The notes beneath the pieces were generated by a model. The model did no database searches, was not told the origin of the DNA, and saw only the letters and a list, made by a program, of their open reading frames with translations. From contig SKOL01000394.1 of assembly GCA_007120055.1 (NCBI GenBank), positions 1 to 18,112 on the forward strand: a stretch of DNA of 18,112 nucleotides, given 5' to 3'. Positions 239-14,913 of this stretch are shown piece after piece. The position numbers were made by a program, and so were the translations under genes. Positions within the stretch are counted from its first letter, which is position 1. Each line of letters opens with the position of its first letter. This DNA comes from Anaerobacillus sp. (GTDB lineage: Bacteria > Bacillota > Bacilli > Bacillales_H > Anaerobacillaceae).

Positions 239-1117
239 TTATTTTTCTGTTACTTTTTCTTTTTCAAATATTTTGTACACAGCCGCACAATCTTCATCCC
301 CAAATCCTAGTTTTTGGGCTTCTTCAAAATGCTTTACAGCCAATGAAACGTGAGGCGCACTTTGCTTGAAGTATTCAGCCATTCCAACACCTAAACGGAC
401 ATCTTTTAGGGCTAAATTAACAGAAAATCTAGTATCATAATCATTATTTAATATCCAAGGTGCCCGTAAGTGAAGTTGATACGAGTCTGCTCCTGTATCG
501 TGTAGTAATTGCTTTAGTAAAACAGGTTCTATACCTGCCTCAATTCCTAACTTCAACCCTTCACTCATTACTACTAAGTTTGTCATTCCAATCATGTTAC
601 TTATTAATTTAAAGGCTGTAGATTGTTCAACATCTCCCAAATAAAAAACCGGATCACCAATCTTGTTTAACATTGACTCAAAAGATTCATAAACCTCTTT
701 ATCTCCACCAGCAAAAATGGGTTCTGTTCCTTCTTCAGCTTGAGCAGGTCCCTTTCCTAAAGGACAAGCTAAGAAATTAATTTTATTCTCTTTTGCAATA
801 TTAGCAATTAATCTAGCAGTCTGTGGATCGATAGTACTGACATCAATTAATGTCGAACCCTTTTTCATCATTGTAAACAATGCTGTTTCTTTAATCATTA
901 AATCAATTAAATGTTTTGGAAGCGGTAAACTAGTAAACAAGACATCAACATTAGAAGCAAGTTCAACTGGTGATTCAGAACAATTTCCACCCACAGCCAA
1001 TGTCTGTTTAATTGCTTCTTCATTAATATCAAAAACGGTAACCTCATAACCTGAACGAATTAAATTTCTAGCTAATCCTCCACCCATTTTTCCTAATCCA
1101 ATAAAACCTACTTTCAT
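239..1117 (-). CDS. Beta-hydroxyacid dehydrogenase (HIBADH/YihU family), candidate DHPS dehydrogenase or sulfolactaldehyde reductase
   Basis: NAD(P)-dependent cytoplasmic enzyme of the 3-hydroxyisobutyrate dehydrogenase family, 292 residues. I chose the ATG at 1117 because AAGGGAG lies 9 nt upstream; longer in-frame starts run into the preceding gene and lack a site. The N-terminus has the Rossmann motif G7-x-G9-x-x-G12, with Asp30 at the end of the second strand favouring NAD. The catalytic Lys is K170, with N174 four residues on. The substrate loop that usually reads P-V-S-G-G reads P-L-G-K-G (119-123), so G121-K122 replace Ser-Gly. In E. coli YihU, as I recall it, the same place reads G-R, and a basic residue there contacts the sulfonate. 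This suggests a sulfonated substrate (inference). It is last in the operon, 25 nt after the aldehyde dehydrogenase. Alternatives are tartronate semialdehyde or hydroxyisobutyrate dehydrogenase. Confidence 0.8.
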   Translation of the reverse strand: MKVGFIGLGKMGGGLARNLIRSGYEVTVFDINEEAIKQTLAVGGNCSESPVELASNVDVLFTSLPLPKHLIDLMIKETALFTMMKKGSTLIDVSTIDPQTARLIANIAKENKINFLACPLGKGPAQAEEGTEPIFAGGDKEVYESFESMLNKIGDPVFYLGDVEQSTAFKLISNMIGMTNLVVMSEGLKLGIEAGIEPVLLKQLLHDTGADSYQLHLRAPWILNNDYDTRFSVNLALKDVRLGVGMAEYFKQSAPHVSLAVKHFEEAQKLGFGDEDCAAVYKIFEKEKVTEK

Positions 1118-1142
1118 CCTACTCATCTCCCTTATACGTCTT

Positions 1143-2579
1143 TTATTCAACATCAATAGATAGAAACTTAGTTTCAAAAAATTCTTCTACCCCTTGGTGT
1201 CCACCTTCTCTTCCTACTCCACTCTCTTTCATTCCACCGAATGGTGCCTGAACTGTAGTCGGTACAGCATCATTAATACCTATAATACCGTAATCTAACT
1301 TTTCCGAAACACGAATTGTACGTCCTAAGTTTTTCGTATAAAAATAAGCTGCTAATCCATAGTTTGTATTGTTTGCGGCTTTACAAACTTCATCTTCATT
1401 ATCGAACACATAAATAGGAGCTACAGGGCCAAATGTTTCATCGTAAGTGATCATCATATCCTCAGTTACATCTGAAAGGAGTGTTGGTTCATAAAAATGA
1501 CCAGCTAGGTTAACTTCAACTCTTTTGCCTCCTATTAATACTTTGGCTCCCTTTTTAACTGCATCTTCTACATGCTGTTCTACTTTTTCTAATGCGCTTT
1601 GATCAACTAAAGGTCCTACATCTGTGGTTTCATCAAACCCATTACCTACCTTTAGGCTTTCGATTTTTTGTTTTAAAATTGTTTCAAACTTTTCTTTTAC
1701 TGAGCGGTGAACATAGAGTCGATTTAAACAAATACAAGTTTGCCCTGCGTTTCTATATTTACTAACTAAAGCACCTTCCGCTGCCTTATTAAGATCAGCA
1801 TCTTCAAAAACAATAAATGGTGCATGCCCGCCGAGTTCCATAGAAACTCTCTTCACTTGATCAGCTGCGCCCCTTAGTAACTCTTTACCAATTTCAGTTG
1901 AACCTGTAAATGTAATTTTTTTAATTTTTTGATTCTGTAAACATTCATTACCTATACTACTTGATCTTCCCATAACTAAATTTACGACCCCTTTAGGTAT
2001 ACCAACTTGCTCTATTAATTCAAACAATCGAACTGCACTTCCAGGGGTTTTACTCGCTGGTTTTAAAATTACAGTACATCCTGCAGCTAAAGCCGGACCA
2101 ATTTTTCTAGTTAACATTGATACCGGAAAGTTCCAAGGAATAATAGCTGCAACTGGCCCAATAGGTTGCTTAATTACATGAATTCGCTTTCCGCTACTTG
2201 ACGCTGGAACAATTTCTCCGTATACTCGCTTAGCTTCTTCTGCATTCCACAATAAGTATTCCGCAGCTAACTGTACTTCTCCTCTTGATTCTCTTAGTGG
2301 CTTTCCCATTTCTAATGTAATTAGTTCTGCAATGCTTTCCTTTTCTTTAAGCATTAAATCATATAAATTATATAAATATTGTGAACGATCTTTAGCTGTT
2401 AATTTTGACCATGATTCAAATGCATCTGATGCACTTTGAATAGCATAAGCGGCATCCTCCTTATCCCCATAAGCAGCCTTTGCAACAACTTCGCCATTGG
2501 CAGGGTTTACAACATCATACGTCTTTTGTGAAATTGCATTGACCCACTCTCCATTAATAAACATTTGTCTGTGCTCCAT
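1143..2579 (-). CDS. NAD(P)-dependent aldehyde dehydrogenase, GabD (succinate-semialdehyde dehydrogenase)-like; candidate sulfolactaldehyde dehydrogenase
   Basis: Cytoplasmic aldehyde dehydrogenase of 478 residues, the usual length. Key residues are N150 in the I-P-W-N-F-P motif, the cofactor-binding K173, the general base E248 in M-E-L-G-G-H-A-P, and the catalytic Cys282 in G-Q-T-C. R158 in the T-R-K-I-G-P-A-L-A-A-G-C segment corresponds to the arginine that succinate-semialdehyde dehydrogenases use to hold the distal carboxylate; here it could hold a sulfonate (inference). Known sulfolactaldehyde dehydrogenases (SlaB, and GabD-type enzymes of sulfoglycolysis) belong to this branch. AAGGGAGAG precedes the ATG at a good distance. 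The gene lies between the TRAP large subunit and the YihU-like dehydrogenase, so a DHPS to sulfolactaldehyde to sulfolactate route is a natural reading. A plain succinate-semialdehyde dehydrogenase cannot be excluded. Confidence 0.85.
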   Translation of the reverse strand: MEHRQMFINGEWVNAISQKTYDVVNPANGEVVAKAAYGDKEDAAYAIQSASDAFESWSKLTAKDRSQYLYNLYDLMLKEKESIAELITLEMGKPLRESRGEVQLAAEYLLWNAEEAKRVYGEIVPASSSGKRIHVIKQPIGPVAAIIPWNFPVSMLTRKIGPALAAGCTVILKPASKTPGSAVRLFELIEQVGIPKGVVNLVMGRSSSIGNECLQNQKIKKITFTGSTEIGKELLRGAADQVKRVSMELGGHAPFIVFEDADLNKAAEGALVSKYRNAGQTCICLNRLYVHRSVKEKFETILKQKIESLKVGNGFDETTDVGPLVDQSALEKVEQHVEDAVKKGAKVLIGGKRVEVNLAGHFYEPTLLSDVTEDMMITYDETFGPVAPIYVFDNEDEVCKAANNTNYGLAAYFYTKNLGRTIRVSEKLDYGIIGINDAVPTTVQAPFGGMKESGVGREGGHQGVEEFFETKFLSIDVE

Positions 2580-2637
2580 AATTTTATCTCTCCCTTTAAT
2601 GATTTATGAAATCTTTTTGAAAAACAAAACAGTGTTA

Positions 2638-3924
2638 TCAATATCCATATAATAACCTTGGTAAGAATAAAACAATATCCTCGAAACGAGCAATAATTAA
2701 TGTCATAATAACTAGGACAATAACATAAGGAATAACTGATTTTGCAATCCTTTCAAATGAAAGGTCAGTAAGACTCTTTGCAACAAATAAATTAATTCCT
2801 AAAGGAGGTGTTAATAAAGCAACTTCATTTGTCATTACAATAATAATACCAAAGTGAATTGGATCAATTCCAAGTTCTACAATTAACGGTAATAATACCG
2901 GGACAAGAATTACGATGGTTGCTAACGTCTCCATAAACATACCGAGTACAAACAAAACTAAAATAATCAATAGTAATACTAAAAAAGGTTCGCTTGTAAT
3001 TGATAAAACTGTATCAGCTAACCGCTGTGGGACATGATACATAGTTAAAAATCGACCAAATAAGAATGAGACTCCAACAACAATAATAACCATACCAGTT
3101 GAAATATTTGCTAGATGAAGGCTTTCCCATATCCTCTTAAGAGTTAATTGTCGGTTAATAACAACCCCAATTACAAAAGCATAGACAACTGCAACAACAG
3201 AAGCTTCAACAGGTGTAAAAATCCCTGCATATATCCCACCGAGAATTATTATTGGGGTGAGCAATGACCAGATGTTTTTATAACAAACTTTAAGGATTTC
3301 TTTTCCTGTATAAACTTTATCTGAACCTTTAAACCCATGTCTTCTAGCAATTAAGTAAGCAGTAAGCATTAACGCGGTAGCCACAAACGCTCCTGGAATA
3401 AAACCTGCTGCGAAAAGACCTGAAATTGATACGTTAGCAATAACTCCATAAATAATCATCGGGTTACTAGGCGGTATTAAGATACCAAGTGCTCCACCTG
3501 TACAACAAACCCCAGCAGCATAGTCCTTACTATATCCATGTTTAATCATAGAAGGTATCATTATAGCTCCCATTGCGGCGACAGTTGCTGGTGCAGAACC
3601 AATCATTGCTGCAAAAAAAACACAGCCTAATATTGTAACAATTCCCAACCCCCCACGTTTTCTTCCAACAAGCATGGAAAACACTTGGACAATTTGTTTA
3701 GACATACCTGCTTTTTCCATTAAAGCACCAGCTAAAATAAAACATGGAATTGCTATTAGTGGAAACATTTCAGAAACTTTATAAAGGTCAAGTGGTATAA
3801 TACTTAATGGTATCGATGTCTGTGTAATAACAATTAAAGTTGCCATACCTAAACTTACGAAGATAGGAACACCGAGCAATATTAACCCAAATAACGCTAT
3901 CCAAACTAACAGGTCGAGACTCAT
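2638..3924 (-). CDS. dctM: TRAP transporter large permease subunit (DctM family)
   Basis: Integral membrane protein of 428 residues, the normal DctM length, hydrophobic throughout with roughly a dozen transmembrane segments. Recognisable family segments include the N-terminal G-V-P-I-F-V-S-L-G stretch, a P-S-N-P-M-I-I-Y-G helix break near residue 150, and a C-terminal T-P-P-L-G-I-N-L-F motif. It forms the Na+-coupled translocation channel with the small subunit and takes substrate from the extracytoplasmic binding lipoprotein. The start is preceded by AAGGGGGA, and its ATG overlaps the stop of the small-subunit gene as ATGA, implying translational coupling. In the sulfolactate degrader Chromohalobacter the corresponding TRAP system is called SlcHFG. 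The substrate here is inferred from the neighbouring enzymes. Confidence 0.92.
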   Translation of the reverse strand: MSLDLLVWIALFGLILLGVPIFVSLGMATLIVITQTSIPLSIIPLDLYKVSEMFPLIAIPCFILAGALMEKAGMSKQIVQVFSMLVGRKRGGLGIVTILGCVFFAAMIGSAPATVAAMGAIMIPSMIKHGYSKDYAAGVCCTGGALGILIPPSNPMIIYGVIANVSISGLFAAGFIPGAFVATALMLTAYLIARRHGFKGSDKVYTGKEILKVCYKNIWSLLTPIIILGGIYAGIFTPVEASVVAVVYAFVIGVVINRQLTLKRIWESLHLANISTGMVIIVVGVSFLFGRFLTMYHVPQRLADTVLSITSEPFLVLLLIILVLFVLGMFMETLATIVILVPVLLPLIVELGIDPIHFGIIIVMTNEVALLTPPLGINLFVAKSLTDLSFERIAKSVIPYVIVLVIMTLIIARFEDIVLFLPRLLYGY

Positions 3925-4427
3925 TGAAATCCCCCTTGCTCGCTTGACTCATTTTTAAAAGCTTTGAATTGCACATAATGGTTCTGTAATATCCTAATAG
4001 AGGCTAATAAAAAACTAATAGGAATTACTAGAAAAATATACTTAAGATCCCAATCTAGTACCGCTGAAAACAATCCATATTGACCCATATTTACAAACAA
4101 TTTAAACCCTTCTATAACAACAATAAAATTAAAGGTTAACCATATTAAATCTGCAAACAAAATAATGCCTATTGTCACTTTTTTTGGTAGTTTTTTAAAA
4201 TGATCAATAATACGGATATGTTGACCTTCTTTAGCTCCTAAACTTACCCCCATAAATACCATCCATAAAAAGACATACCGTGACAGTTCTTCAGTCCATG
4301 GAATAGAAACACTAAAAACATATCTAGAAACAACCTGAGTAAAAAGAAGCACAACTAATGTTAACAAGAACAAAGAGCATAAAACTTGTTCAAAATTATT
4401 AATCAACCATAATAATTTTTTTTTCAA
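3921..4427 (-). CDS. dctQ: TRAP transporter small permease subunit (DctQ family)
   Basis: Small four-helix membrane partner of DctM. The motif S-R-Y-V-F followed by P-W-T-E-E-L-S-R-Y-V-F-L-W is the diagnostic DctQ signature. The start is uncertain because there is no ATG. A TTG at 4466 opens the longest frame (181 residues). A TTG at 4427 lies 9 nt after GGGGGT and gives a Lys-rich N-terminus directly before the first helix, as in typical DctQ proteins (168 residues). A GTG at 4436 is too close to the same site. I prefer 4427. The C-terminus ends in the ATGA overlap with the large-subunit gene. The 119-nt or longer gap upstream to the binding-protein gene holds two hairpins. Confidence 0.85.
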   Translation of the reverse strand: MKKKLLWLINNFEQVLCSLFLLTLVVLLFTQVVSRYVFSVSIPWTEELSRYVFLWMVFMGVSLGAKEGQHIRIIDHFKKLPKKVTIGIILFADLIWLTFNFIVVIEGFKLFVNMGQYGLFSAVLDWDLKYIFLVIPISFLLASIRILQNHYVQFKAFKNESSEQGGFQ

Positions 4428-4477
4428 TTCAAGCACACCCCCAGTGTGATCTCTGAAAATACCCAAACATGGAATGA

Positions 4478-4540
4478 ATTTCCGACTATTATCCTAAGGT
4501 GAAATGTTATATTTTTCCACCTCAAGATAAAGTCGGAAAT
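4478..4540 (-). other. Intercistronic hairpin upstream of dctQ
   Basis: ATTTCCGACT (4478-4487) pairs perfectly with AGTCGGAAAT (4531-4540). Inside, AGGTG (4497-4501) pairs with CACCT (4518-4522), making a long interrupted stem. No T run follows on the minus strand, so it looks more like an mRNA-stabilising or processing structure than a terminator. Confidence 0.5.
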
Positions 4541-4547
4541 ATTTAAG

Positions 4548-4572
4548 ATAAAGGTACAGTATTTACCTTTAT
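4548..4572 (-). terminator. Weak terminator-like hairpin after the TRAP binding-protein gene
   Basis: ATAAAGGTA (4548-4556) and TACCTTTAT (4564-4572) form perfect 9-bp arms around a 7-nt loop, 13 nt after the dctP stop codon. It is AT-rich and followed on the minus strand by CTTAAATATTT. A partial terminator would leave more message for the binding protein than for the permease subunits, a common need in TRAP operons (inference). Confidence 0.4.
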
Positions 4573-4585
4573 TTTATGAAAACCA

Positions 4586-5632
4586 TTACGGTAACTCACG
4601 TCCTAATACATCCATTACTTCTATTAGTAGATCTGTACCGCCGATTCTGTCGTAAAATTGTGGCCACAGTGCCATTGCGGCTTCTACCCAATCTTCTTCA
4701 TCAGCAGGTGCTCCATTATATTGCATTCCTGCGTCAATAAGTCGCTCTAATGTTTCCTGTTCTTTCTCAATGATAAATTCACGCACAGCTAATGAGGCTT
4801 CTTGACCCGCTCTAATAATTGCTTCCTTAATTTCTTCAGGCAAGTTTTGCAACCATTGTTCATTTACAACAACAGGTCCGATCCACATTTTATAATGAAT
4901 ATCTGTAACGTATTCTTGAACTTCTTGGAATTTACTACTGTAAATAACTGAATATGGGTTTTCTTGCCCATCAACAACACCTTGTTGTAGTGCACTGAAA
5001 GTTTCATCCCACGAGATTGGTGTAGGTTGTGCCCCCCATGCATTAAACGATTCAAGCATCATTGGATTTTGTGGAACCCGAATCTTTAAGCCTTTTAAAT
5101 CATTCATATTGTTAATTGGTCTTTCTGAATTAGTAATAACTCTAAACCCTTGGTCAAACCATATAATCGCTCTATTCCCCGACTCTTCTATCATTTGATC
5201 ATTAATTTTGTCCCAAAGTTGATCCACCACTTTATAAAAGTCATTACGGCTCTGAAAAATGTATGGTAAATCAAACATACCGAGACTTGGTGCAAAAGCA
5301 GTTGCGTTATTAACAGCTAGAGAGGTAGCTTCAACAATGCCATTTTGTACATCTTGAAATCCTCTTTGTTCACTACCTAACTGACCAGCTGGAAAAATTT
5401 CAACGTTAACTGCTCCATCTGTATATTCTTCAACAAGTTCTTTGAATTTTACCGCGGTCCATTGGTGGGGATCGTCTAAAGTTGCCCCAACACCATGTGT
5501 ATATTTAATCGTAATCGTTTCTTTCAATCCATTTTCACCACCAGTAGCTTCCCCAGAGCATCCAACTACAAGTAGAATACTAATTAAACCTATAAACAAA
5601 ACAAAGATTTTATAACTTTTCAACTCTATCAT
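4586..5632 (-). CDS. dctP: TRAP transporter substrate-binding lipoprotein (DctP family)
   Basis: Extracytoplasmic solute receptor of 348 residues. The N-terminus has a hydrophobic signal (residues 9-24) ending in lipobox L-V-V-G-C with Cys25, so the mature protein should be lipid-anchored to the outer face of the membrane, as in Gram-positives. The mature part carries the G-L-K-I-R-V-P-Q-N-P motif; R185 is the family's conserved arginine that salt-bridges an acidic group of the ligand. Downstream N225 lies in the G-Q-E-N-P segment. This fits an anionic ligand such as a sulfonated hydroxyacid, although most DctP ligands are carboxylates. GGGGGGG lies 8 nt before the ATG. It sits 24 nt after the comC-like gene and precedes the two membrane subunits after two hairpins. 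Confidence 0.93.
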   Translation of the reverse strand: MIELKSYKIFVLFIGLISILLVVGCSGEATGGENGLKETITIKYTHGVGATLDDPHQWTAVKFKELVEEYTDGAVNVEIFPAGQLGSEQRGFQDVQNGIVEATSLAVNNATAFAPSLGMFDLPYIFQSRNDFYKVVDQLWDKINDQMIEESGNRAIIWFDQGFRVITNSERPINNMNDLKGLKIRVPQNPMMLESFNAWGAQPTPISWDETFSALQQGVVDGQENPYSVIYSSKFQEVQEYVTDIHYKMWIGPVVVNEQWLQNLPEEIKEAIIRAGQEASLAVREFIIEKEQETLERLIDAGMQYNGAPADEEDWVEAAMALWPQFYDRIGGTDLLIEVMDVLGRELP

Positions 5633-5656: not shown

Positions 5657-6718
5657 TTAACTTATTGAAACTTTAAAACTTGGAAAAGATACATTAACTA
5701 AATTGCTTATTTCCCTTAACTCCTGCTCAACTTCTTCTGAGATCATAATTCCTTCTTTTAATCTTTTCTGATATTCTCGCTCTCTCCTTTCTCCTGGATA
5801 AAGAATTTCTTCAACTCCATCTTTTTTCGGTGTTGCTTTAATTTCTTCAATAAAACCTTTCATCATGTAGTTAAACGTATCAAGTGGCATAAATTTCTCT
5901 ATATCTAGGAGAATAAAAAAGTGACCTACATTTGCGTGTTCATTTTTCTCACTATAAATATTGTGAACATTTGGTCCATAAGCAGCACCTGATAAGATAC
6001 CGGTCAATACTTCGACCGCAAGAGCTAGCGCATAGCCTTTTGCTCCACCAACTGGTAAGACTGCTCCTTTCAAAGCTTCATGAGGGTTGTCAGTTTCTTT
6101 ACCTTTTTCATTGATGGCCCAACCCTTTGGTATTGATTGATTTTCTTTTGCTGCAAGAATAATTTTCCCTCGTGCAACAACACTTGTTGACATATCAATA
6201 ATTACGGGGGCACTCGTTCCATTAGGAAAACCAAACGCAATGGGATTAGTACCAAAAAACGCTTTCGTTCCCCCCCATGGTGGAATTCCTGGTGGGGAGT
6301 TTGTAAATGCCATAGCTACAAGCCCTTCTTTCGCTGCCATTTGACAGAAATACGACGCCGTTCCAAAATGATTACTATTACGAACCGCAATGGAAGCGTT
6401 TCCACTTCTCTTCGCTAAAGAAATACCTGCTTGAATTGCTCTTGCTGATACAATTTGCCCTAGGCCATTATCACCATCAACAAGTAAAACAGCTTCTCCT
6501 TTTTTTTCAATCTTAATGTTCGGTTCAGGGTTAATTCTTCTGTCTCTCATTCTTTTAGCATAAATCCCCAATCGACTAATACCGTGGCTATCTACACCTT
6601 CAAGATTTGCTCTGATTAATGCATCCGCCGCATTAAAAGCGTCTTCATTTTCAGAACCAATACTAGTTAAAACATTTTTACAAAACTCCCTTAAATCATC
6701 GGAATTATAGAGGGGCAT
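5657..6718 (-). CDS. comC: Ldh2/ComC-family malate/L-lactate-type dehydrogenase, candidate (R)-sulfolactate dehydrogenase
   Basis: NAD(P)-dependent 2-hydroxyacid oxidoreductase of the unusual non-Rossmann Ldh2 fold, 353 residues. The ATG at 6718 is chosen because GGAGGT lies 7 nt upstream; a longer frame to 6766 has no such site and lies wholly inside the regulator gene. Family marks are D-S-H-G-I-S-R (43-49, with H45 and R49), S-N-H-F-G-T (115-120, with H117), G-T-N-P-I-A-F-G (156-163) and D-M-S-T-S-V-V-A-R-G-K (175-185). ComC of methanogens interconverts sulfopyruvate and (R)-sulfolactate, and in Chromohalobacter a ComC works with SlcC as a two-enzyme racemase. A D-2-hydroxyacid dehydrogenase lies two genes upstream, which supports that role. 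The start overlaps the end of the GntR gene by 14 nt. Other hydroxyacids (malate, ureidoglycolate, lactate) are possible substrates if context is ignored. Confidence 0.8.
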   Translation of the reverse strand: MPLYNSDDLREFCKNVLTSIGSENEDAFNAADALIRANLEGVDSHGISRLGIYAKRMRDRRINPEPNIKIEKKGEAVLLVDGDNGLGQIVSARAIQAGISLAKRSGNASIAVRNSNHFGTASYFCQMAAKEGLVAMAFTNSPPGIPPWGGTKAFFGTNPIAFGFPNGTSAPVIIDMSTSVVARGKIILAAKENQSIPKGWAINEKGKETDNPHEALKGAVLPVGGAKGYALALAVEVLTGILSGAAYGPNVHNIYSEKNEHANVGHFFILLDIEKFMPLDTFNYMMKGFIEEIKATPKKDGVEEILYPGERREREYQKRLKEGIMISEEVEQELREISNLVNVSFPSFKVSIS

Positions 6719-7433
6719 TATCTTTACCTCCGTCTTCTTTATTAGACAATATTGACTTTTCGACACTTTCTAAATGCTCAAACATGTATTTCTCTGCTAA
6801 TACACCATCGTGACTTAACATCGCTTCAAGTATTTTAATGTGCTGCTTTAATGAGATTTCCGCTCGACCTGGAATATGAAGCGTTTCAAACCTTGCTTCA
6901 TCTAACAAATCTATTAAGTTCATCATTATTCTTAATAGAATTGAATTTCCTGAAATTCTAGTGATTGTTAAATGAAGTTTTTGATCTAGATTAGATAACT
7001 CTTCATTGGATGGTTCCTCTTTTAGGGCTTGCTTTGTTACATCAAGGATATATCTTAGTTTCACTTCGTTTTTTTCATGTAGATTTTGCATAGCGAGACT
7101 TACTGCAGTGGTTTCTAAGACTTTTCGAATAGTAAATAGCTCAACGACTTGGTTTTTTTTAAGAAGGATATTTTTTGTAATATTCAGAACACTTTCCTCG
7201 TAATTCTCCACATAAACACCGTTCCCATGCTTAATTTTCAAATAACCCATCGCAGCTAAAATTTTATAAGCCTCACGAATTGTATTTCTACTTACATTCA
7301 ATGTTTTAGCCATTTCCCGCTCACTAGGAATTCTGTCTCCAGCTTGAAACTTCCCCTCTTCAATAAGGCCTTTTATATAATCAGCCACAGTGTCTGAGAT
7401 GCTTTTTCGATCGACCTTAAACGTATTAAACAT
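6705..7433 (-). CDS. GntR-family transcriptional regulator, FadR/FCD subfamily, likely operon regulator
   Basis: DNA-binding regulator of 242 residues. Residues 10-75 form the winged helix-turn-helix, with the GntR hallmark I-P-S-E-R-E-M-A and the recognition helix S-R-N-T-I-R-E-A. Residues from about 90 to 225 form an all-helical FCD ligand domain. Its likely metal-binding residues are the Asp/His of D-Q-K-L-H-L and His in the Q-H-I-K-I-L and F-E-H-L segments. FCD domains sense small organic acids through the metal, which fits sulfolactate or a related intermediate (inference). It is embedded in the operon, 16 nt after slcC and overlapping comC by 14 nt, so it would autoregulate. The inverted repeat downstream of the suyA promoter (10032-10052) is the best operator candidate. 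Confidence 0.92.
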   Translation of the reverse strand: MFNTFKVDRKSISDTVADYIKGLIEEGKFQAGDRIPSEREMAKTLNVSRNTIREAYKILAAMGYLKIKHGNGVYVENYEESVLNITKNILLKKNQVVELFTIRKVLETTAVSLAMQNLHEKNEVKLRYILDVTKQALKEEPSNEELSNLDQKLHLTITRISGNSILLRIMMNLIDLLDEARFETLHIPGRAEISLKQHIKILEAMLSHDGVLAEKYMFEHLESVEKSILSNKEDGGKDNAPL

Positions 7434-8493: not shown

Positions 8494-9666
8494 TTAAATA
8501 CTTACCCCTACACGGTGAATAGCAAAGCCTGTTTGTTCTTTTAAAATTTCCGCTTTTGTAAGCTTTCCGTTACAAGTTTCAAGGACTTCGTTATAAATCA
8601 CCTCTCCTGCATCGGCAATTGTGAGTTCATCACGGAAAATGCCACTTAAATCTAATTCAACTGTATCTTCCATTAATTCAAATGACTCGTTATTACCCGT
8701 GATTTTAATGGTTGGCATGATTGGGTGAGAAATTGTATGTCCTCCTCCAGTACTAAAAACGAGTACTTGTGCACCTGCAGCCGCTATTGCTGAAATTGAC
8801 TCACTCCCGTGACCAGGAGTATACATTACATAAACACCTGGATCTTTTTGCTCAATATATTCTGCACACTCTAATCCGTTTACGATTGGCGCTTTACCTG
8901 ATTTCATGTAGGCTCCTAACGATTTTTCCTCAATTGTACTTAAGCCACCAATAATGTTATCACCTGTCGGCTGTGATCCTCGAATATCTTCTCCACTCGC
9001 TAATGCGCGCCTCTCCATATCGTTGATATAACCTACAATTTTCTCTCCTACCTCTGGTGTCACTGAACGTTCCTTAATAAAGTCTTCAGCTCCCATTAAC
9101 TCCATAACTTCTGCTAGGATTGAACGTCCTCCATGAGCAACAATCTTATCTGAACAAACCCCAAGTGCCACATTTGATCCAATTCCTGAACTCGTGTCAG
9201 ATGTTCCACAGTTTAAGCCGAATACTAAGTTTGAAATACTGACAGGTTCCCGAACTAAGTTAGATAGTTCACGCTTCATATTCATCGCTTTTCGCGTTGC
9301 CTCAGCAGTCGCTTCAATAGCCCCGCCAGATTTTCGAATATTGACTACTTCGACACGCTTCCCAGTTTTAGCTACTTCTGCAGCAATCTCTTCTGCAGTA
9401 CAACCTTCCTCACGGAAGTGATCAATCACGACAACTCCACCTACATTAGGATTTTTAGCTGTACCCACTAATGTTTGGAATGTTTGACGCAAATCAGGTC
9501 TTACTTGACAACGTCCTAGTGGATGAGTAATTGCAACCGCTCCGTCAATTGTTGCAGCAACACGTTCGGCCGTAGAGTTTGCGTAAATTGTTCCTGAAAG
9601 TATAAGAATGTGATTACGTATTCCCACTTGACCATCTGGACGAACATATCCCATAAAAGTACTCAT
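8494..9666 (-). CDS. suyB: UxaA-family lyase large subunit, probable (2R)-sulfolactate sulfo-lyase subunit beta
   Basis: Catalytic subunit of 390 residues matching the C-terminal UxaA/galactarate dehydratase domain without its SAF part. Family marks in order: G-Q-V-G-I-R-N-H (12-19), a H-P-L-G-R-C site (48-53) where sugar-acid dehydratases usually have H-x-x-G-C, F-G-L-N-C-G-T-S-D (149-157), G-G-R-S-I-L (179-184), E-E-K-S-L-G near 250, then T-P-G-H-G-S-E and S-T-G-G-G-H-T-I-S-H in the last quarter. The reaction inferred is (R)-3-sulfolactate to pyruvate plus sulfite in the cytoplasm. Sulfolactate sulfo-lyase is encoded as two genes of this type, while many altronate dehydratases are single fused chains. 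The sulfite-exporter-type genes and two hydroxyacid dehydrogenases nearby favour SuyB. The gene begins 2 nt after suyA. An altronate or galactarate dehydratase is the main alternative. Confidence 0.82.
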   Translation of the reverse strand: MSTFMGYVRPDGQVGIRNHILILSGTIYANSTAERVAATIDGAVAITHPLGRCQVRPDLRQTFQTLVGTAKNPNVGGVVVIDHFREEGCTAEEIAAEVAKTGKRVEVVNIRKSGGAIEATAEATRKAMNMKRELSNLVREPVSISNLVFGLNCGTSDTSSGIGSNVALGVCSDKIVAHGGRSILAEVMELMGAEDFIKERSVTPEVGEKIVGYINDMERRALASGEDIRGSQPTGDNIIGGLSTIEEKSLGAYMKSGKAPIVNGLECAEYIEQKDPGVYVMYTPGHGSESISAIAAAGAQVLVFSTGGGHTISHPIMPTIKITGNNESFELMEDTVELDLSGIFRDELTIADAGEVIYNEVLETCNGKLTKAEILKEQTGFAIHRVGVSI

Positions 9667-9668: not shown

Positions 9669-9992
9669 TTATACACGCTCCTTTTCAGCTTGATTTTTAA
9701 CAAATAAATCTCCACGGCCTCTATTACTCTCAATATTATGAATATGAACGTGATCCCCTACTTCGATGTCTTCTAAGGCTGTACCGATACTTAATCCATA
9801 TTTTAAGATTGCGTCTCCCTTTTTAATCGGACGAACAGCAATTTTGTGACCATATGGAATATCCTTTAATATTTCAACATGCTTAACATCACCATCAACT
9901 TCAACCGTAACACTTCTTCCTTGTTTCATACCTCTACTAATTACAGTAGCCGTATTGTCCAGTTGTTCTACTAAATGAACTTCTCTTGCCAT
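9669..9992 (-). CDS. suyA: SAF-domain small subunit, probable (2R)-sulfolactate sulfo-lyase subunit alpha
   Basis: A 107-residue protein consisting of one SAF domain, homologous to the N-terminal part of altronate dehydratase. Visible marks are D-N-T-A-T near residue 12, I-P-Y-G-H-K-I-A-V (about 45-53), I-K-K-G-D-A-I-L-K-Y-G, D-I-E-V-G-D-H-V-H-I-H-N, and a C-terminal N-R-G-R-G-D tail. In this family the SAF subunit helps hold the acid substrate while the large subunit does the metal-dependent elimination. GAGGAGG lies just before the ATG, the strongest ribosome binding site of the operon. It is the first gene, separated from suyB by 2 nt. A frame-shifted copy of its first half, plus the whole upstream region, is present at 13476-13838. 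Confidence 0.82.
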   Translation of the reverse strand: MAREVHLVEQLDNTATVISRGMKQGRSVTVEVDGDVKHVEILKDIPYGHKIAVRPIKKGDAILKYGLSIGTALEDIEVGDHVHIHNIESNRGRGDLFVKNQAEKERV

Positions 9993-10031: not shown

Positions 10032-10052
10032 TTGGTTAAATGCCCCAACCAA
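10032..10052. promoter_or_regulatory. Inverted repeat, candidate GntR operator
   Basis: TTGGTT (10032-10037) and AACCAA (10047-10052) are perfect inverted arms 9 nt apart, about 15-35 nt past the -10 box of the suyA promoter and so around or just after the expected transcript start. The same dyad, with one more paired base on each side, survives at 13653-13675 in the decayed copy. TGGT/ACCA half-sites are typical of FadR-subfamily regulators, although this spacing is longer than in the FadR site itself. Confidence 0.5.
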
Positions 10053-10066
10053 TTGCTATTAAAGCT

Positions 10067-10215: not shown

Positions 10216-11406
10216 ATGGGAGTTCCTGACAAAAAGAAAGTAGAAAAAAAATTAACAACTAAACACCTATACAAAAATTTGAAACAAATTAAAAACATCT
10301 TACCTGGAATTTTGTATTGTTTAGGGATTATGTTAGTCGGTATATTTTTAGCAGAATGGCTAGGCACTTGGGTTAATCAATTACAAGGGCTTCCAAGTAC
10401 AAGTTCAAGCCCCATATCTAGTATTTTCGTAGCGATTATTCTTGGTTTGTTAGTAAGGAATATCATTGGTTTACAAGAAGTATTTAAGGATGGCGTTACA
10501 TTTTCTATAAAATTTATATTAAGATTTGGAATTATCTTGTTGGGGATCCGGTTAAGTTTTATAGATGTTGTAAAATTAGGAGCCTGGGGCATTCCGATTA
10601 TCCTAGCGTGTGTCGCTGCAGGTTTATTCGTCACATTGTGGATTACCAGTAAGATGAAACAGTCTCACAGACTAGGGACCCTCGTAGCCAGTGGCACAGG
10701 AATATGTGGTGTTACGGCGATAGTCGCGATCTCACCTGGAATTAAAGCCAATGATGAAGAAGTAGCATATGCAATTGCAAACATTACACTTTTTGGCGTC
10801 ATCGCAATGTTCGCCTACCCATACTTGGCGTATTATTTATTTCAAGATGATCCTATTAAAGCAGGTCTTTTCTTAGGTACATCGATTCACGAAACGGCTC
10901 AAGTTGCAGGTGCTGCTCTTATTTATGACCAAGTGTTTGAAATGTCAAAGGTTGTTGATGTTGCAACAATTACAAAACTAACAAGAAATGTTTTAATTCT
11001 AGCGGTTGTACCATTATTATCATTTTATTATTTAAACAAAGTAGCAGACCGTACAAATGGACCGGTAACAACTCAAAAGTGGTATCAGTTAATTCCGTTA
11101 TTCGTATTAGGATTTTTAGGCATGGCTATTGCTCGTTCAATAGGAGATGCTGGTGTAACTAACCATGGTGTTGCTTTCGGATTGTTAAGCCCCGAACAAT
11201 GGAAAAATACCTGGACAACACTCAATACGTTAGGTTCTAAATATTTTTTAGGAATTGCGATGGCCGGAGTCGGCCTTTCTACAAGCTTTGGTGTATTTAA
11301 AGGATTAGGAATTAAGCCCTTCTTTATTGGGATGGTAGCAGCACTTGCGGTTGGCGTTGTAAGTTTAATCATGGTATCTCTATTAGGAGGTTTTATCTCA
11401 CTTTAA
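10216..11406 (+). CDS. PF03601 (YeiH-type) membrane exporter, candidate sulfite/sulfonate exporter
   Basis: Integral membrane protein of 396 residues with about ten hydrophobic segments after a basic cytoplasmic N-terminus (Lys-rich, residues 5-27). Family hallmarks include G-T-G-I-C-G-V-T-A-I in the middle, then I-T-L-F-G-V-I-A-M-F-A-Y-P, and G-T-S-I-H-E-T-A-Q-V-A-G-A-A. Members are annotated as putative sulfate exporters. In enteric bacteria yeiH lies beside the LysR gene yeiE, which is linked to sulfite tolerance. AAAGGAG lies 9 nt before the ATG. The gene is divergent from suyA across a 223-nt region, so both could share control. Exporting sulfite released by SuyAB is the simplest role (inference). 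A strong palindromic terminator follows. Confidence 0.85.
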   Translation: MGVPDKKKVEKKLTTKHLYKNLKQIKNILPGILYCLGIMLVGIFLAEWLGTWVNQLQGLPSTSSSPISSIFVAIILGLLVRNIIGLQEVFKDGVTFSIKFILRFGIILLGIRLSFIDVVKLGAWGIPIILACVAAGLFVTLWITSKMKQSHRLGTLVASGTGICGVTAIVAISPGIKANDEEVAYAIANITLFGVIAMFAYPYLAYYLFQDDPIKAGLFLGTSIHETAQVAGAALIYDQVFEMSKVVDVATITKLTRNVLILAVVPLLSFYYLNKVADRTNGPVTTQKWYQLIPLFVLGFLGMAIARSIGDAGVTNHGVAFGLLSPEQWKNTWTTLNTLGSKYFLGIAMAGVGLSTSFGVFKGLGIKPFFIGMVAALAVGVVSLIMVSLLGGFISL

Positions 11407-11410
11407 TAAT

Positions 11411-11461
11411 AAAAGGGCTGTCCCAAAAGGTCATTTTATGACCTTTTGGGACAGCCCTTTT
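11411..11461 (+). terminator. Perfect 24-bp palindromic terminator after the PF03601 gene
   Basis: Arms 11411-11434 and 11438-11461 are fully complementary with only a TTT loop; the left arm begins AAAAGGGCTGTCCC and the right arm ends in TTTT. It begins 4 nt after the stop codon. The near-perfect, bidirectional stem and the GGGCTGTCCC core resemble palindromes scattered through Bacillus-type genomes and at some insertion-sequence ends, so it may also be a repeat element. Confidence 0.85.
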
Positions 11462-11527
11462 ATATAATGTAAGCTAACTAATAACTTAGGGAGTAAGTGT
11501 TTCAATTTTAGTTCGATTCTAACATAA

Positions 11528-11668
11528 TTATTTCATTATAGGTTTAGGTTTCTCAAGATCTGTATCATTTAAAATTCTAATGAAGCCATAATTAATAGTA
11601 AGGTTTTGATCAGCTCCGTTGTATAGACACAATGGAAATTCTCCATTTATAACAATGTTCTAAGTAAT
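11528..11668 (-). other. Short open frame without a start downstream of the TauE gene
   Basis: After the TauE stop, a different minus-strand frame stays open for about 45 codons from an in-frame TAG to a TAA at 11528-11530. The amino-acid composition looks protein-like (G-E-F-P-L-C-L-Y near the beginning, E-K-P-K-P at the end), but there is no ATG, GTG or TTG start and I do not recognise it. It could be a degraded gene end. Confidence 0.15.
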
Positions 11669-12375
11669 AATGAAATCCCTGTTGACAAAAGAATTGTGTA
11701 AGTTATTAGTATAAAAAATTTCTTTGAAATTAACTTATGGACTTTATTTCCTACTAAAACCCCTAAATATGATACTGGTAATAATAATAGAAGATATTTT
11801 ACCATTTCCATTGTTATTGACCCACTTAAAAGTAACACCGTTAATGGAAATGGGTAAATGAAAAACAAAAATACTATTCCGTTGGCACGATAATAGACTT
11901 GATCAGCTTTTTTCGTTTCTAAATAAAGCATAATTGGCGGACCAGGTAATCCAACACTAAATGTTAAAAATCCAGAGAATGCACCAAAACACCAATCTTT
12001 TTTCTCGATTTTACTTAACCACCTGTCAAAATAATGTTTAAAGATTAATAAGAGTGTAATAAGAATAATTACAATGCTTATTAATAACCTTAAACCTTCA
12101 ACATCAAAATAAAAGAAGACGCCCCCCCCAATGGGTAGTCCGAGTAAACTTCCTAATAACAATCGTTTTTGCAATTTTCGATCTGAACCTTTATACACGC
12201 TTTTCACATTAATACTTAAAGTTAAAAACGAAATGAGCATCACTAGCGGTATTACCCACTGAGGAGCAAACATTAAAGATAAAATCGGAATTGAAATTAA
12301 AGCAAATCCAAAGCCTGTAGTCGATTGAATTAAAGCTGAGAAGAAAATCGCAACCGCACTCAAAAGTAGGTCCAT
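11647..12375 (-). CDS. TauE/SafE-family permease (first of two)
   Basis: A 242-residue membrane protein with about seven or eight hydrophobic segments and the two half-repeats typical of TauE/SafE (formerly DUF81). The first half carries T-T-G-F-G-F-A-L-I-S-I-P (19-30) and the second V-G-L-P-G-P-P-I-M-L-Y-L near residue 140. Members are linked to sulfite or organosulfonate export in taurine, sulfoacetate and sulfolactate pathways. AAGGTGG precedes the ATG by 7 nt. It follows the second TauE-type gene by 42 nt on the same strand, so the two are probably cotranscribed. It is not closely similar to its neighbour, so the pair does not look like a recent tandem duplication. It converges with the PF03601 gene. 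Confidence 0.85.
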   Translation of the reverse strand: MDLLLSAVAIFFSALIQSTTGFGFALISIPILSLMFAPQWVIPLVMLISFLTLSINVKSVYKGSDRKLQKRLLLGSLLGLPIGGGVFFYFDVEGLRLLISIVIILITLLLIFKHYFDRWLSKIEKKDWCFGAFSGFLTFSVGLPGPPIMLYLETKKADQVYYRANGIVFLFFIYPFPLTVLLLSGSITMEMVKYLLLLLPVSYLGVLVGNKVHKLISKKFFILITYTILLSTGISLLLRTLL

Positions 12376-12417: not shown

Positions 12418-13179
12418 CTAATATAAAAATTGTATTCCAATAAAGAGTAACACTGTAGACAATAAATAAACTAATTTTTTCGAAGGCATACGATTAGAAA
12501 CAAACGCTCCTAATGGAGCCCCGATTACTGCTCCTAATACTAAATTAATCCCAATTGACCAGATAATATAGCCGTTAAAAATATAAAAAAGTACAGATAT
12601 AAAACCAATACATGTAACAACAAATTGAGAGGTAGGTACACCCCACTTTACAGGAAACCCTAAAATGTAAATGAGTATGGGCACCATGAAAGGGCCACCA
12701 CCAATTCCCATTAGCGACGAGATAATTCCAATTCCCGTTAAAGAGCAGAAACCTAAAACCTTTTTATTAAAATTGAGATTACTCCAATTAAATGAATAAC
12801 TCTCTTCGCTCTGTTGTTTTCCTAGTGAGTTTTTCCAAATCATCCATAGAGCCAGTATGATTACTAATATCCCAAATATGAGTTGAAACGTACGCGGTTC
12901 AATTTGAAAAGCTATATAAACTCCTAATAATATCCCTAAAAATGATAGTAATGAAAATTTAATCCCATTTTTTATGTCAACTTTTCCATAACGAATGTAG
13001 GATACTGTACCAAAAAAACCATTTAATACGACAAATAATAACGAGGTACCCGCAGCATATAAAGGTTCAATGTTTAAAAAAAGAATAAGGATTGGTATAG
13101 CTAGGAATCCGCCCCCCGCCCCTAAAATAGTGCCTATCATCCCTATTAATAAACCAATCCCTATAAAAATCAACTCCAT
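12418..13179 (-). CDS. TauE/SafE-family permease (second of two), sulfite-exporter type
   Basis: A 253-residue, eight-helix membrane protein with a clear internal duplication. G-A-G-G-G-F-L-A-I-P-I-L at 20-31 is mirrored by G-I-G-G-G-P-F-M-V-P-I-L near 160, the defining glycine-rich signatures of the family. A charged loop around residues 115-135 separates the halves. It is expected in the cytoplasmic membrane, exporting sulfite or a sulfonate (inference from family and neighbours). AAAGGAGTGG lies before the ATG. It is the upstream gene of a two-gene minus-strand unit. I find no confident promoter in the 150 nt upstream, which adjoin the decayed suy copy. Confidence 0.88.
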   Translation of the reverse strand: MELIFIGIGLLIGMIGTILGAGGGFLAIPILILFLNIEPLYAAGTSLLFVVLNGFFGTVSYIRYGKVDIKNGIKFSLLSFLGILLGVYIAFQIEPRTFQLIFGILVIILALWMIWKNSLGKQQSEESYSFNWSNLNFNKKVLGFCSLTGIGIISSLMGIGGGPFMVPILIYILGFPVKWGVPTSQFVVTCIGFISVLFYIFNGYIIWSIGINLVLGAVIGAPLGAFVSNRMPSKKLVYLLSTVLLFIGIQFLY

Positions 13180-13332: not shown

Positions 13333-13376
13333 GTTACTGCCTCGTATAATGCCTGTTCACGATAATTCAACTATTA
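13333..13376 (-). pseudogene. Remnant of slcC (internal fragment)
   Basis: This stretch matches 7658-7707 inside slcC with several small deletions (the shared run beginning GTTACTGCCTCGTATAATGC is identical). It is out of any translatable context and directly joined to a suyB fragment. Confidence 0.75.
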
Positions 13377-13482
13377 ATTGCAACCGCTCCGTCAATTGTT
13401 GCTGCAACACGTTCGGCCGTATAGTTTTCGTAAATTATTCCTGAAAGTATAAGGATGTGGTTACGTATTCCCCCTTGACCAT
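13376..13482 (-). pseudogene. Remnant of suyB (codons about 11-45)
   Basis: The stretch matches 9531-9633, the early part of suyB, with about ten base changes. Its distal end is fused to the slcC fragment over a shared TAAT, and its proximal end is fused to the suyA fragment over a shared TGACCAT (present in suyB near 9628 and in suyA near 9846). The rest of suyB is missing. Confidence 0.85.
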
Positions 13483-13614
13483 ATGGAATATCCTTTAATA
13501 TTTCAACATGCTTAACATCACCATCAACCGTAACACTTCTTCCTTGTTTCATACCTCTACTAATTACAGTAGCCGTATTGCCACTTCTTCTACTAAATGA
13601 ACTTCTCTTGCCAT
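13476..13614 (-). pseudogene. Remnant of suyA (first half), frame-shifted
   Basis: The stretch corresponds to the first roughly 48 codons of suyA with its ATG at 13614 and an intact GGAGGAG site. A single missing base about codon 13 (GAC reduced to GC) shifts the frame into an early TAA. A two-codon deletion (Glu-Val before D-G-D) lies at a short repeat. From a downstream ATG (13552) the frame reads in phase through the junction into the suyB fragment, giving a 61-codon chimera that is probably not functional. Confidence 0.88.
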
Positions 13615-13652
13615 TTAGACTCCTCCTCGATTATTGCCTAATTTAATAGTAT

Positions 13653-13727
13653 ATTGGTTAAATGACCCAACCAATCCGCTATTAAGGATATTAGGAATAT
13701 TAAAGCATTAAAAAACTTTTTTATCAA
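13653..13727 (-). promoter_or_regulatory. Conserved promoter and inverted repeat in the decayed copy
   Basis: TTGATA (13727-13722) and TTTAAT (13704-13699) keep the 17-nt spacing of the functional copy. ATTGGTT (13653-13659) and AACCAAT (13669-13675) keep the dyad with its 9-nt centre. The distance between -10 and dyad is 9 nt longer than at suyA. It may still drive a short transcript or bind the regulator. Confidence 0.5.
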
Positions 13728-13918
13728 CGTTTTTTAAATCTTTAGTATTATTAGAATATTTAATGAGTAGCATCAAAAACTACAATGAATTCTTTTCATT
13801 TTCGTATGATATTGTAAAATTATATACCTAGAAAAGTAAGAAACGTGGTGCGTTTCAAAGTAAATACATTATTTTTGAATATTTTAATTTTTTTAAATAA
13901 AAGGACAACTTCATGGTA

Positions 13919-13924
13919 TATAAT
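13919..13924 (+). promoter_or_regulatory. Possible -10 box of the LysR gene
   Basis: TATAAT within TATATAAT, preceded by TGG, lies 36 nt before the TTG start. There is no good -35 hexamer at 17 nt, so it would depend on the upstream TG or on an activator. Confidence 0.35.
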
Positions 13925-13959
13925 GGAATAATAACAATTAAAACTTAGGGGGTAGTGCT

Positions 13960-14913
13960 TTGAATTTAGACCATTTAAAAGTTTTTTACACTGCAGCTAC
14001 TAAAAAGAACTTCTCTGAAACAGGAAAAATTCATCACCTTTCCCAACCTTCTGTTAGTCTTCAAATAAAAAGTCTTGAAGAAACACTAAAGGTTAAGCTC
14101 TTTAATAGAACTACAAAAAAAATTGAATTAACCGATTCTGGGATACTTCTCTTCGATTATGTAAGGCGGATTGTCGAAATTGTAGATAAAGCAGAAAAAG
14201 ACCTTGCATTATTGTCTGGATCTATTCATGGCAACTTGTTTATCGGTGCAAGTTTAACAATTGGAGAACATTTATTACCATATACATTAGGCAAATTTAA
14301 ACAAGAATACCCTCAAGTAAACCTCATCATGAAAATTTATAATTCAAAACAAATCATTAATAAAATAATTGATGAAGAAGTTGATCTCGGATTTATTGAA
14401 GCACCAATGTTTCACCCTTCATTAGAATGTAAGCCTTTTCTTGAGGATGAGCTTGTGATCATTTCATCAGGAAAATCTGACAACTCACTAATTGGGGAAA
14501 AAGAAATCCTAACTCCTGAAGAGTTATTTTCTCTTCCTTTTATTTTGAGAGAAGAAGGTTCGGGTACACGACAAGTAATGGAAGATACGCTAAGAAGTCA
14601 TCATCTAGATCCTACCAACCTAAATGTTGTATTAGAGTTAGAAAACACTGAATCGATAAAAGCTACAGTCGAATCTGGGATGGGAGTCTCCATTATCTCT
14701 TTGACAGCAATTCAAAAAGAATTAAAACTAGGGACACTTCGTAAAATAAAACTTCAAGGGCTTAATTTAAGAAGAAATTTTTATATTGTTCATAGCAAGG
14801 CCAAAGTTTTATCATTACCAAGTGAAGCCTTTTTGAATTATATAATGAATAGATTTTTTGAAAATAAAAATCCAGAATCAAATGTAATTCAAATCGGTAC
14901 GACTGGAATATAG
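13960..14913 (+). CDS. LysR-family transcriptional regulator, CysL/YeiE-like
   Basis: A 317-residue regulator starting with TTG, 6 nt after GGGGGT. Residues 1-60 form the winged helix-turn-helix (A-A-x-K-K-N-F-S-E-T-G followed by L-S-Q-P-S-V-S-L-Q-I-K-S-L-E). From about 90 on it has the LysR effector-binding fold. The segment R-E-E-G-S-G-T-R-Q-V-M-E (about 198-209) is characteristic of the CysL/YeiE/CbbR branch. CysL controls sulfite reductase genes in Bacillus, and YeiE is tied to sulfite tolerance and sits next to yeiH. A role in sensing sulfite and controlling the exporters here is therefore reasonable (inference). The last 15-20 residues extend beyond the usual end, and its frame leads past the TAG straight into an RHS remnant. 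Confidence 0.88.
   Translation: MNLDHLKVFYTAATKKNFSETGKIHHLSQPSVSLQIKSLEETLKVKLFNRTTKKIELTDSGILLFDYVRRIVEIVDKAEKDLALLSGSIHGNLFIGASLTIGEHLLPYTLGKFKQEYPQVNLIMKIYNSKQIINKIIDEEVDLGFIEAPMFHPSLECKPFLEDELVIISSGKSDNSLIGEKEILTPEELFSLPFILREEGSGTRQVMEDTLRSHHLDPTNLNVVLELENTESIKATVESGMGVSIISLTAIQKELKLGTLRKIKLQGLNLRRNFYIVHSKAKVLSLPSEAFLNYIMNRFFENKNPESNVIQIGTTGI

Follow-up and report, generated by a model that had tools for sequence, protein, structure and literature searches.

A putative C3-sulfonate catabolic operon of Bacillales with a SuyAB-like lyase of a separate branch

We analyzed an 18,112-nucleotide stretch of DNA from Anaerobacillus sp. (contig SKOL01000394.1; the whole stretch is referred to here as the window) and found that it probably contains a Bacillales operon for C3-sulfonate catabolism, with a scheme that would lead from substrate import to sulfite export and include its own regulation. 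The sulfolactate core of this scheme, taken alone, is very probably assigned correctly. The observations that carry this reading are the gene content, the recurrence of the gene set in other genomes, the loss of dehydratase cysteines from the lyase, the placement of the lyase in phylogenetic trees, and a palindrome at the promoter. An earlier note on this DNA, made from the letters alone, had proposed a catabolic island for sulfolactate and possibly 2,3-dihydroxypropanesulfonate (DHPS), and this C3-sulfonate reading is most likely right, being supported by the tree, the cysteine signature, and the gene neighbourhood.

In the proposed scheme, for which we infer every substrate, every reaction direction and the binding regulator, the TRAP system would import sulfolactate and/or DHPS. 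The YihU-like enzyme would oxidize DHPS to sulfolactaldehyde, from which the GabD-like enzyme would form (S)-sulfolactate by a second oxidation. With sulfopyruvate as the intermediate, the sulfolactate enantiomers would be interconverted by the SlcC-like and ComC-like dehydrogenases. The SuyAB-like lyase would then split the (R)-enantiomer into pyruvate and sulfite, the latter to be exported by the PF03601 and TauE proteins. A regulator, most likely GntR, would repress the promoters through the palindrome TTGGTT-N9-AACCAA until an inducer appears.

The gene set listed in the earlier note, consisting of a split lyase, dehydrogenases, a TRAP system, a GntR regulator, the GabD-like and YihU-like enzymes and three exporters, was recovered in full at the positions given there. 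All the named genes are uninterrupted open reading frames with Pfam matches above the gathering score:

9669..9992, minus strand: suyA-like small SAF-domain lyase subunit, 107 amino acids (PF08666)
8494..9666, minus strand: suyB-like large lyase subunit, 390 amino acids (PF04295 and PF20629, GD_AH_second/GD_AH_C)
7450..8397, minus strand: slcC-like D-2-hydroxyacid dehydrogenase, candidate (S)-sulfolactate dehydrogenase (Pfam 2-Hacid_dh)
6705..7433, minus strand: GntR/FCD-type regulator (PF00392 and PF07729)
5657..6718, minus strand: comC-like Ldh2-type dehydrogenase, candidate (R)-sulfolactate dehydrogenase (PF02615, Ldh_2)
4586..5632, minus strand: TRAP solute-binding protein DctP (PF03480)
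3921..4466, minus strand: TRAP small permease DctQ (PF04290)
2638..3924, minus strand: TRAP large permease DctM (PF06808)
1143..2579, minus strand: GabD/SlaB-like aldehyde dehydrogenase, candidate sulfolactaldehyde dehydrogenase (PF00171, Aldedh)
239..1117, minus strand: YihU-like beta-hydroxyacid dehydrogenase, candidate DHPS/sulfolactaldehyde oxidoreductase (PF03446 and PF14833, NAD_binding_2/NAD_binding_11)
10216..11406, plus strand: suyZ-like exporter, divergent from suyA (PF03601, Cons_hypoth698)
11647..12375, minus strand: TauE/SafE-family exporter 1 (PF01925)
12418..13179, minus strand: TauE/SafE-family exporter 2 (PF01925)

The ten minus-strand genes from suyA to yihU run from 9992 down to 239 in the order suyA, suyB, slcC-like, gntR, comC-like, dctP, dctQ, dctM, gabD-like and yihU-like, neighbours overlapping or lying no more than 119 bases apart, and are predicted to form one transcript. 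Judging from the sequence and the lengths of homologues, the comC-like gene probably starts at 6718 rather than at the 6766 of its listed open reading frame, and the yihU-like gene at 1117 rather than at 1177.

The lyase is split into a short SAF protein and a GD_AH large subunit, and a suyA match was present at 75 of the 79 loci found in the suyB homologue search. The large subunit is 37-42% identical to the SuyB proteins of hpsN/slcC/comC/suyZ clusters, for which the comparison set comprised Cupriavidus, Paracoccus, Methylobacterium, roseobacter SC52, Rhodococcus, and two genomes (G343 and G183) from the order of Halalkalibacter oceani, hereafter the order. It shares 46% identity with haloarchaeal proteins encoded beside hpsN, suyZ and TRAP genes (L083) or beside TauE (L147), 44-45% with the split dehydratases of sugar-acid clusters in Priestia (L084) and Escherichia albertii (L082), and 32-34% with E. 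coli GarD and UxaA. Since the values for dehydratases and for SuyB lie so close together, identity alone does not decide between them.

The residues of the lyase were more informative. According to PMC6336799, four cysteines are conserved across enzymes of the UxaA/GarD superfamily, with sulfolactate lyase excepted. We read these positions, defined as the columns with Cys in both E. coli UxaA and GarD (UxaA 132, 166, 199 and 264), in 133 sequences. The window SuyB has Y28, R52, E86 and C153 at these columns and thereby keeps one of the four cysteines. The same Y-R-E-C combination was present in 86 of 86 members of the window branch (13/13 from Bacilli and 73/73 others), while [IL]RIC was found in 11/11 classical SuyB, YRGC in both haloarchaeal rows, NRLC in Variovorax and ATTC in Halarchaeum. 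In contrast, CCCC was retained in all 26 paralogues (one from a Priestia plasmid, the others from 25 loci of the order and sharing 40-45% identity with the window lyase), as well as in UxaA, GarD, both kdgT-type rows, Sporomusa and Selenomonas. Common to the window lyase and classical SuyB are the loss of three cysteines and an Arg at the second position. At the position of UxaA R416, 26/26 paralogues have Arg, a residue that none of the window-branch, haloarchaeal or classical SuyB sequences has there, and the window lyase scored 135 bits against TIGR03248, whose curated cut-off is 730.85.

Phylogenetic placement was consistent with this signature. In a 64-row tree, the window branch and the haloarchaeal pair (35 rows) were grouped with support of 100/99 and united at 98/95 with the classical SuyB branch, which itself had support of 96/74 and included one long Variovorax row. 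When Variovorax and the other long rows were taken out, the thinned tree placed the window branch, the haloarchaea and classical SuyB (36 rows) on one side at 99/96, and in both trees the lyase branch lay apart from the sugar-acid dehydratases. The window SuyB falls outside the branch of SuyB from hpsN/slcC/comC clusters and belongs to a sister branch, for which reason we call the enzyme SuyAB-like and not SuyAB. It most likely represents a second, separate branch that sides with the sulfolactate lyases within the UxaA superfamily, and the use of the name SuyAB here rests on branch, residues and context rather than close homology. The earlier note had taken the lyase to be SuyAB; the sulfolactate-lyase side of that claim stands, whereas its identification with ordinary SuyAB does not.

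The two dehydrogenases that would supply the lyase with the correct enantiomer are also part of this setting. The slcC-like D-2-hydroxyacid dehydrogenase gene sits in one cluster with suyAB and comC, and its product is 36-42% identical to homologues in the Rhodococcus and Paracoccus clusters and 53-67% identical to those in Bacilli clusters with the same lyase branch. Among NCBIfam models, the ComC-like protein scored best with NF040650, that of L-sulfolactate dehydrogenase, reaching 303.5 bits where the cut-off is 500.

We compared the genes within 8 kb of suyB at 8 Bacilli loci of the window branch (the window included), 11 classical loci, 2 haloarchaeal loci, 72 non-Bacilli loci of the window branch, several of which are short contigs so that misses are partly technical, and 24 control loci of the paralogue. 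Of these, 6/8, 10/11, 2/2, 6/72 and 0/24, respectively, encoded HpsN or an exporter (PF03601, TauE), and 6/8, 8/11, 0/2, 4/72 and 1/24 had slcC together with comC. Sugar-acid markers (KGSADH, FAH, DHDPS, KdgT) were absent from the Bacilli branch (0/8), classical (0/11), haloarchaeal (0/2) and other branch loci (0/72) and present at 23/24 control loci. A suyZ-like gene lay within 8 kb of suyB at 5/8 Bacilli branch loci and 8/11 classical loci. The core gene order recurs in H. oceani (L002) as lysR, suyZ and a divergent suyA-suyB-slcC-gntR-comC run; Salirhabdus euzebyi (L004) and G058 (L131) have the same core with comC ahead of gntR, and in Brevibacillus massiliensis (L003) suyA-suyB-slcC-gntR-comC-TRAP is accompanied by lysR, with no suyZ match. 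The lysR homologues, 57-71% identical, adjoin suyZ in L002, L004 and L131.

Among 397 genomes of the order, the window-type lyase (at least 75% identity) was present in five (G001, G003, G058, G111 and G215) and the classical lyase (at least 72% identity to that of G183) in 14, and no genome carried both at these thresholds. Around the classical lyase, the same partners occur in other genomes of the order. The G343 locus (L129), whose SuyB is 38% identical to that of the window, contains a major facilitator superfamily (MFS) gene, gabD (69%), yihU (63%), slcC (61%), comC (58%), gntR (47%), suyZ (31%) and TRAP genes, and the G183 locus (L130) contains gabD (42%), an MFS gene, yihU (58%), lysR (54%), suyZ (27%), slcC (61%), gntR (44%) and comC (61%). 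We lean towards the view that two sulfolactate-lyase lineages have been exchanged in place amid the same dehydrogenases, regulator, exporter and palindrome, and that the second type is a widespread desulfonating enzyme annotated as altronate dehydratase. Lyases of the window branch, with Y-R-E-C, also occur in Clostridia, Chloroflexi, Planctomycetes, Nitrospinae and other phyla.

The regulatory features of the window and the remaining elements around the operon are:

10032..10052: palindrome TTGGTT-N9-AACCAA between suyA and suyZ
13375..13835, minus strand: partial, decayed duplicate of the start of suyAB with its promoter, facing the tauE pair
13960..14913, plus strand: LysR-type regulator (PF03466 and PF00126)
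11409..11463: between suyZ and tauE1, a perfect inverted repeat of 26 nt that resembles a terminator on both strands

An alignment of the regions upstream of suyA revealed a promoter-like stretch and a palindrome-like core common to the window, L002, L003, L004 and L131. In the window, the palindrome is TTGGTTAAATGCCCCAACCAA and lies just downstream of a promoter-like TTGATA-17-TTTAAT, read on the minus strand. By eye, it also lies just after a -10-like sequence in L129, L130 and L183; directly after the -10 is a usual position for a repressor. A promoter word scan gave 55 matches compared to 56.2 in shuffles, so that the promoter claim rests on the upstream alignment and the by-eye reading of these three loci. 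The loose pattern TTGGTT-N9-AACCA yielded 37 strand-matches in 9 of ten genomes, against 24 for a backward control, a count that itself says little; a site was found ahead of suyA or its operon in five genomes and led to a previously unseen suyAB in G012 (L183).

A narrower pattern, TGGTTNNNTGNNCCAACCAA, was built from the window, G001, G343, G183 and G012 and run on the 397 genomes. It gave 11 sites in 8 genomes, with none for the backward control, and all 11 were located in or directly ahead of suyAB/slcC/comC/gntR/suyZ clusters of either lyase type. Four of the genomes (G003, G040, G223 and G384) were outside the pattern-building set, G003 having already shown a site of the looser form, and six sites in the other three revealed newly recognized suyAB carriers. 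In one of these, G223 (L212), classical suyAB and the palindrome each occur twice in one cluster. The pattern was present in 2/5 genomes with the window-type lyase and 6/14 with the classical type. A GntR homologue was encoded in all 8 palindrome-bearing clusters and a LysR homologue in 4 of them (G001, G003, G040 and G183), which makes the GntR protein the best candidate to bind the promoter palindrome. We did not count the palindrome at 13654-13674 as an independent site, since it is part of the duplicated, decayed suyAB start, which aligns with the suyAB region at 84% identity over 370 positions and at 93% over 113. This copy, in which the palindrome is kept, may now drive the two tauE genes.

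These data have to be weighed against other functions of the lyase. Automatic annotation would make it a sugar-acid dehydratase for altronate, arabinonate or a similar substrate: Pfam and NCBIfam offer only galactarate/altronate families, and the names given to close homologues are 'UxaA family hydrolase' or 'altronate dehydratase large subunit', so that, as the earlier note anticipated, the automatic names hide the enzyme. The identity to the split dehydratases is slightly above that to classical SuyB. Forcing the window branch and the haloarchaea onto the gucD-type dehydratases costs 23.1 log units and was borderline rejected (approximately unbiased (AU) test, p 0.048), and forcing them onto the two kdgT-type dehydratases costs 15.9 log units and was not rejected (AU p 0.077). 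With that caveat, the placement that the earlier note had proposed as a test showed no firm grouping with sugar-acid dehydratases, and we discarded an altronate or arabinonate dehydratase on the strength of the cysteine signature, the gene context and the tree: three of the four cysteines are lost throughout the 86 branch members, and a sugar-acid marker occurs at 0 of 80 branch loci (8 Bacilli, 72 others) compared to nearly every control. A sugar-acid dehydratase is therefore very improbable. It is also improbable that the lyase removes a beta-leaving group other than sulfite from a 2-hydroxyacid, with the exporters expelling some other anion. The low identity to classical SuyB would fit such an enzyme, as would the GH4 and LarA neighbours at many non-Bacilli branch loci, but the kinds of neighbours and the promoter palindrome are those of classical SuyAB in the order, and HpsN with PF03601, or TauE, stands beside the haloarchaeal sister branch.

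Besides the identity and constraint results, several findings weigh against a C3-sulfonate operon. Only 6 of the 72 non-Bacilli branch loci have an exporter and 4 have slcC with comC, whereas a GH4 glycosidase is present at 32/72 and a LarA homologue at 38/72, which together indicate that members of the branch may differ in substrate. Matches to both slcC and comC also occur at one of the 24 control loci. The ComC-like protein is below the NCBIfam equivalog cut-off, and in a PDB search its matches to two malate dehydrogenases were slightly stronger than that to L-sulfolactate dehydrogenase. Of the genomes with the window-type and the classical lyase, 3/5 and 8/14, respectively, lack the palindrome pattern, most relatives with the window-type lyase have no TRAP genes nearby, and our search of the partly accessible literature turned up no assay of any lyase of the window branch.

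The loci with GH4 and LarA are mostly from Chloroflexi/Anaerolineae. In L010, L033, L040 and others, window-branch suyAB lies near genes for GH4 and for a homologue of the lactate racemase LarA, with PFK and a Cgl0159-type aldolase at 5/72 loci each. These loci possibly encode a sugar-sulfonate route in which a LarA-type racemase replaces slcC and comC. We considered whether they were sulfoquinovose clusters with GH188, but the glycosidase matched GH4 families and structures and was not counted as a sulfonate marker; LarA, present in 10/24 controls, was likewise dropped as unspecific.

The DHPS arm of the scheme draws on a different set of observations. Close YihU-like homologues were found in 3 of the 397 genomes (G012, G183 and G343). 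In the last two of these (L130 and L129), and on two Rhodococcus plasmids (L127 and L138), suyAB, slcC and comC have a yihU-like neighbour, and an aldehyde dehydrogenase gene is near yihU and suyAB in L127, L129 and L130. On the plasmids of Rhodococcus koreensis and R. jostii RHA1, suyAB, yihU, slcC and comC form one cluster, which in R. koreensis also includes aldehyde dehydrogenase and MFS genes; in the unannotated R. jostii record, the aldehyde dehydrogenase match is about 8.5 kb from suyB. This recurrence suggests that DHPS is a further substrate of the operon, and the note's 'possibly DHPS' is somewhat better supported than before. At the level of residues, the YihU-like protein aligns Lys with Arg123 of E. 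coli YihU, which we take to be the sulfonate contact, where GarR has Gly, and it keeps a Lys aligned with that of the family's KL-N motif, presumably the catalytic residue. In the GabD-like protein, both positions aligned with R171 and R289 of RlGabD are Arg, a pair proposed to bind sulfonate (PMC10599462).

It is possible, although unlikely, that the operon serves sulfolactate only and that the GabD-like and YihU-like enzymes act on another hydroxyacid or semialdehyde, their genes being in the operon without a part in its pathway. Four loci of the same lyase branch (L002, L003, L004 and L131) have the core without yihU, and a close yihU is absent from the entire genome of six relatives with the window-type lyase, where the best matches reach 29-33%. 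In G012, gabD and yihU are on a separate contig from slcC-suyAB-comC-gntR-suyZ-TRAP. The YihU-like protein scored 130 bits against the sulfolactaldehyde reductase model NF012005, whose cut-off is 348 and which was its fifth-best model, and its best PDB match is named 3-hydroxyisobutyrate dehydrogenase. The GabD arginine pair does not tell sulfolactaldehyde and succinate semialdehyde apart, as succinate-semialdehyde dehydrogenase has it too. Speaking against a sulfolactate-only operon are the yihU-like genes beside suyAB, slcC and comC at four other loci, with an aldehyde dehydrogenase near three of them, and the basic residue instead of Gly at the Arg123 position.

Regarding import, the earlier note had pointed to TRAP carriers of sulfolactate. 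The full TRAP system is indeed present; at other loci, TRAP genes adjoin the DHPS gene hpsN in L083, L087 and L143, whereas TTT-type transporter genes sit with sulfolactate genes in L087, L148 and L141. Homologues of the window DctP occur in mixed contexts (twice with polyol genes, once with xsc and an exporter), which do not favour our scheme and give no substrate assignment.

A few further observations were made at the loci surveyed. The haloarchaeal plasmids L083 and L147, where the SuyAB sister branch adjoins HpsN, PF03601 and TRAP, or TauE, are candidates for archaeal DHPS or sulfolactate use. Beside the classical suyAB of L130, a gene at 2682-5351 encodes pyruvate-phosphate-dikinase and PEP-utiliser domains, and ppsA is near the Haloarcula locus L083; such genes would fit gluconeogenesis from pyruvate. 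Salsuginibacillus kocurii has two contigs (L008 and L005), each with a window-branch suyB. In the window, the gap between suyB and slcC contains a perfect 11-nt inverted repeat with a 6-nt loop (8419-8446), and a scan of the window found no tRNA and no Rfam family at the gathering score. The window SuyB is 92% identical to that of H. oceani, whereas TopB, at the right end of the window and with matches in 8/10 related genomes, is 61% identical to its H. oceani counterpart and up to 71% to others. Both proteins support a host from Bacillales, and the difference between them would be explained by slow evolution of SuyB or by a transfer of the island from one lineage to another.

Breakdown of sulfoquinovose yields sulfolactate and DHPS, and algae produce them too. 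Sulfolactate is also reported to make up about 5% of endospore dry weight (PMC9826295), and Bacilli are known to make it (PMC12890257). SuyAB in Firmicutes as such is not new, having been described in Desulfotomaculum, Desulfitobacterium and Desulfosporosinus (PMC6278857) and in Thermanaeromonas (PMC9826295), while no sulfolactate lyase or sulfolactate cleavage of aerobic Bacillaceae was among the literature matches listed, which left subscription literature mostly uncovered. Of greater interest is the key enzyme, which appears to represent a second sulfolactate-lyase branch in the setting of classical SuyAB, with the same palindrome, within the order. The residue signature and the promoter palindrome provide two simple tests for such clusters, with which 'altronate dehydratase' annotations could be corrected.

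The predicted pathway resembles several known systems. In Desulfovibrio DF1, two dehydrogenases convert DHPS to sulfolactate ahead of SuyAB (DhpA, SlaB and SuyAB; PMC6278857), and the candidate steps deduced from the window genes would follow the same course, from DHPS through sulfolactaldehyde and sulfolactate to pyruvate and sulfite, with a GabD-type enzyme like SlaB. In the window, the candidate for the DHPS dehydrogenase step, taken by DhpA in DF1, is the YihU-like beta-hydroxyacid dehydrogenase; a YihU-like first step ahead of SuyAB was not found in the accessible literature. The YihU-like protein shares with E. coli YihU the superfamily, a basic residue at position 123 and the Lys of the KL-N motif, and differs in having Lys instead of Arg, in an expected oxidizing direction, and in a PDB search score of 92 bits, below 16 other chains. 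The HpsN/HpsO pathway of DHPS degradation in Cupriavidus and roseobacters also feeds SuyAB, and no HpsN, of the histidinol-dehydrogenase family, is encoded in the window. The Ruegeria pomeroyi megaplasmid region checked for SuyAB contained no UxaA-type gene, its sulfonate genes being the cuyA and cuyZ of PMC4334477. Like the two-dehydrogenase SlcC/ComC sulfolactate racemase of Chromohalobacter (cited in PMC12421959), the window has a D-2-hydroxyacid dehydrogenase and an Ldh2-type dehydrogenase close to the lyase, and these slcC-like and comC-like candidates are 42% and 33% identical to the pair of Paracoccus seriniphilus. Finally, compared to the SuyAB of Paracoccus pantotrophus, Cupriavidus pinatubonensis and Desulfovibrio DF1, the window lyase forms a separate, well-supported branch at 37-42% identity, with Tyr and Glu at the first and third positions where the classical enzyme has Ile/Leu and Ile, yet it shares with them the split subunits, the loss of three cysteines, the second-position Arg, and the slcC, comC and exporter neighbours.

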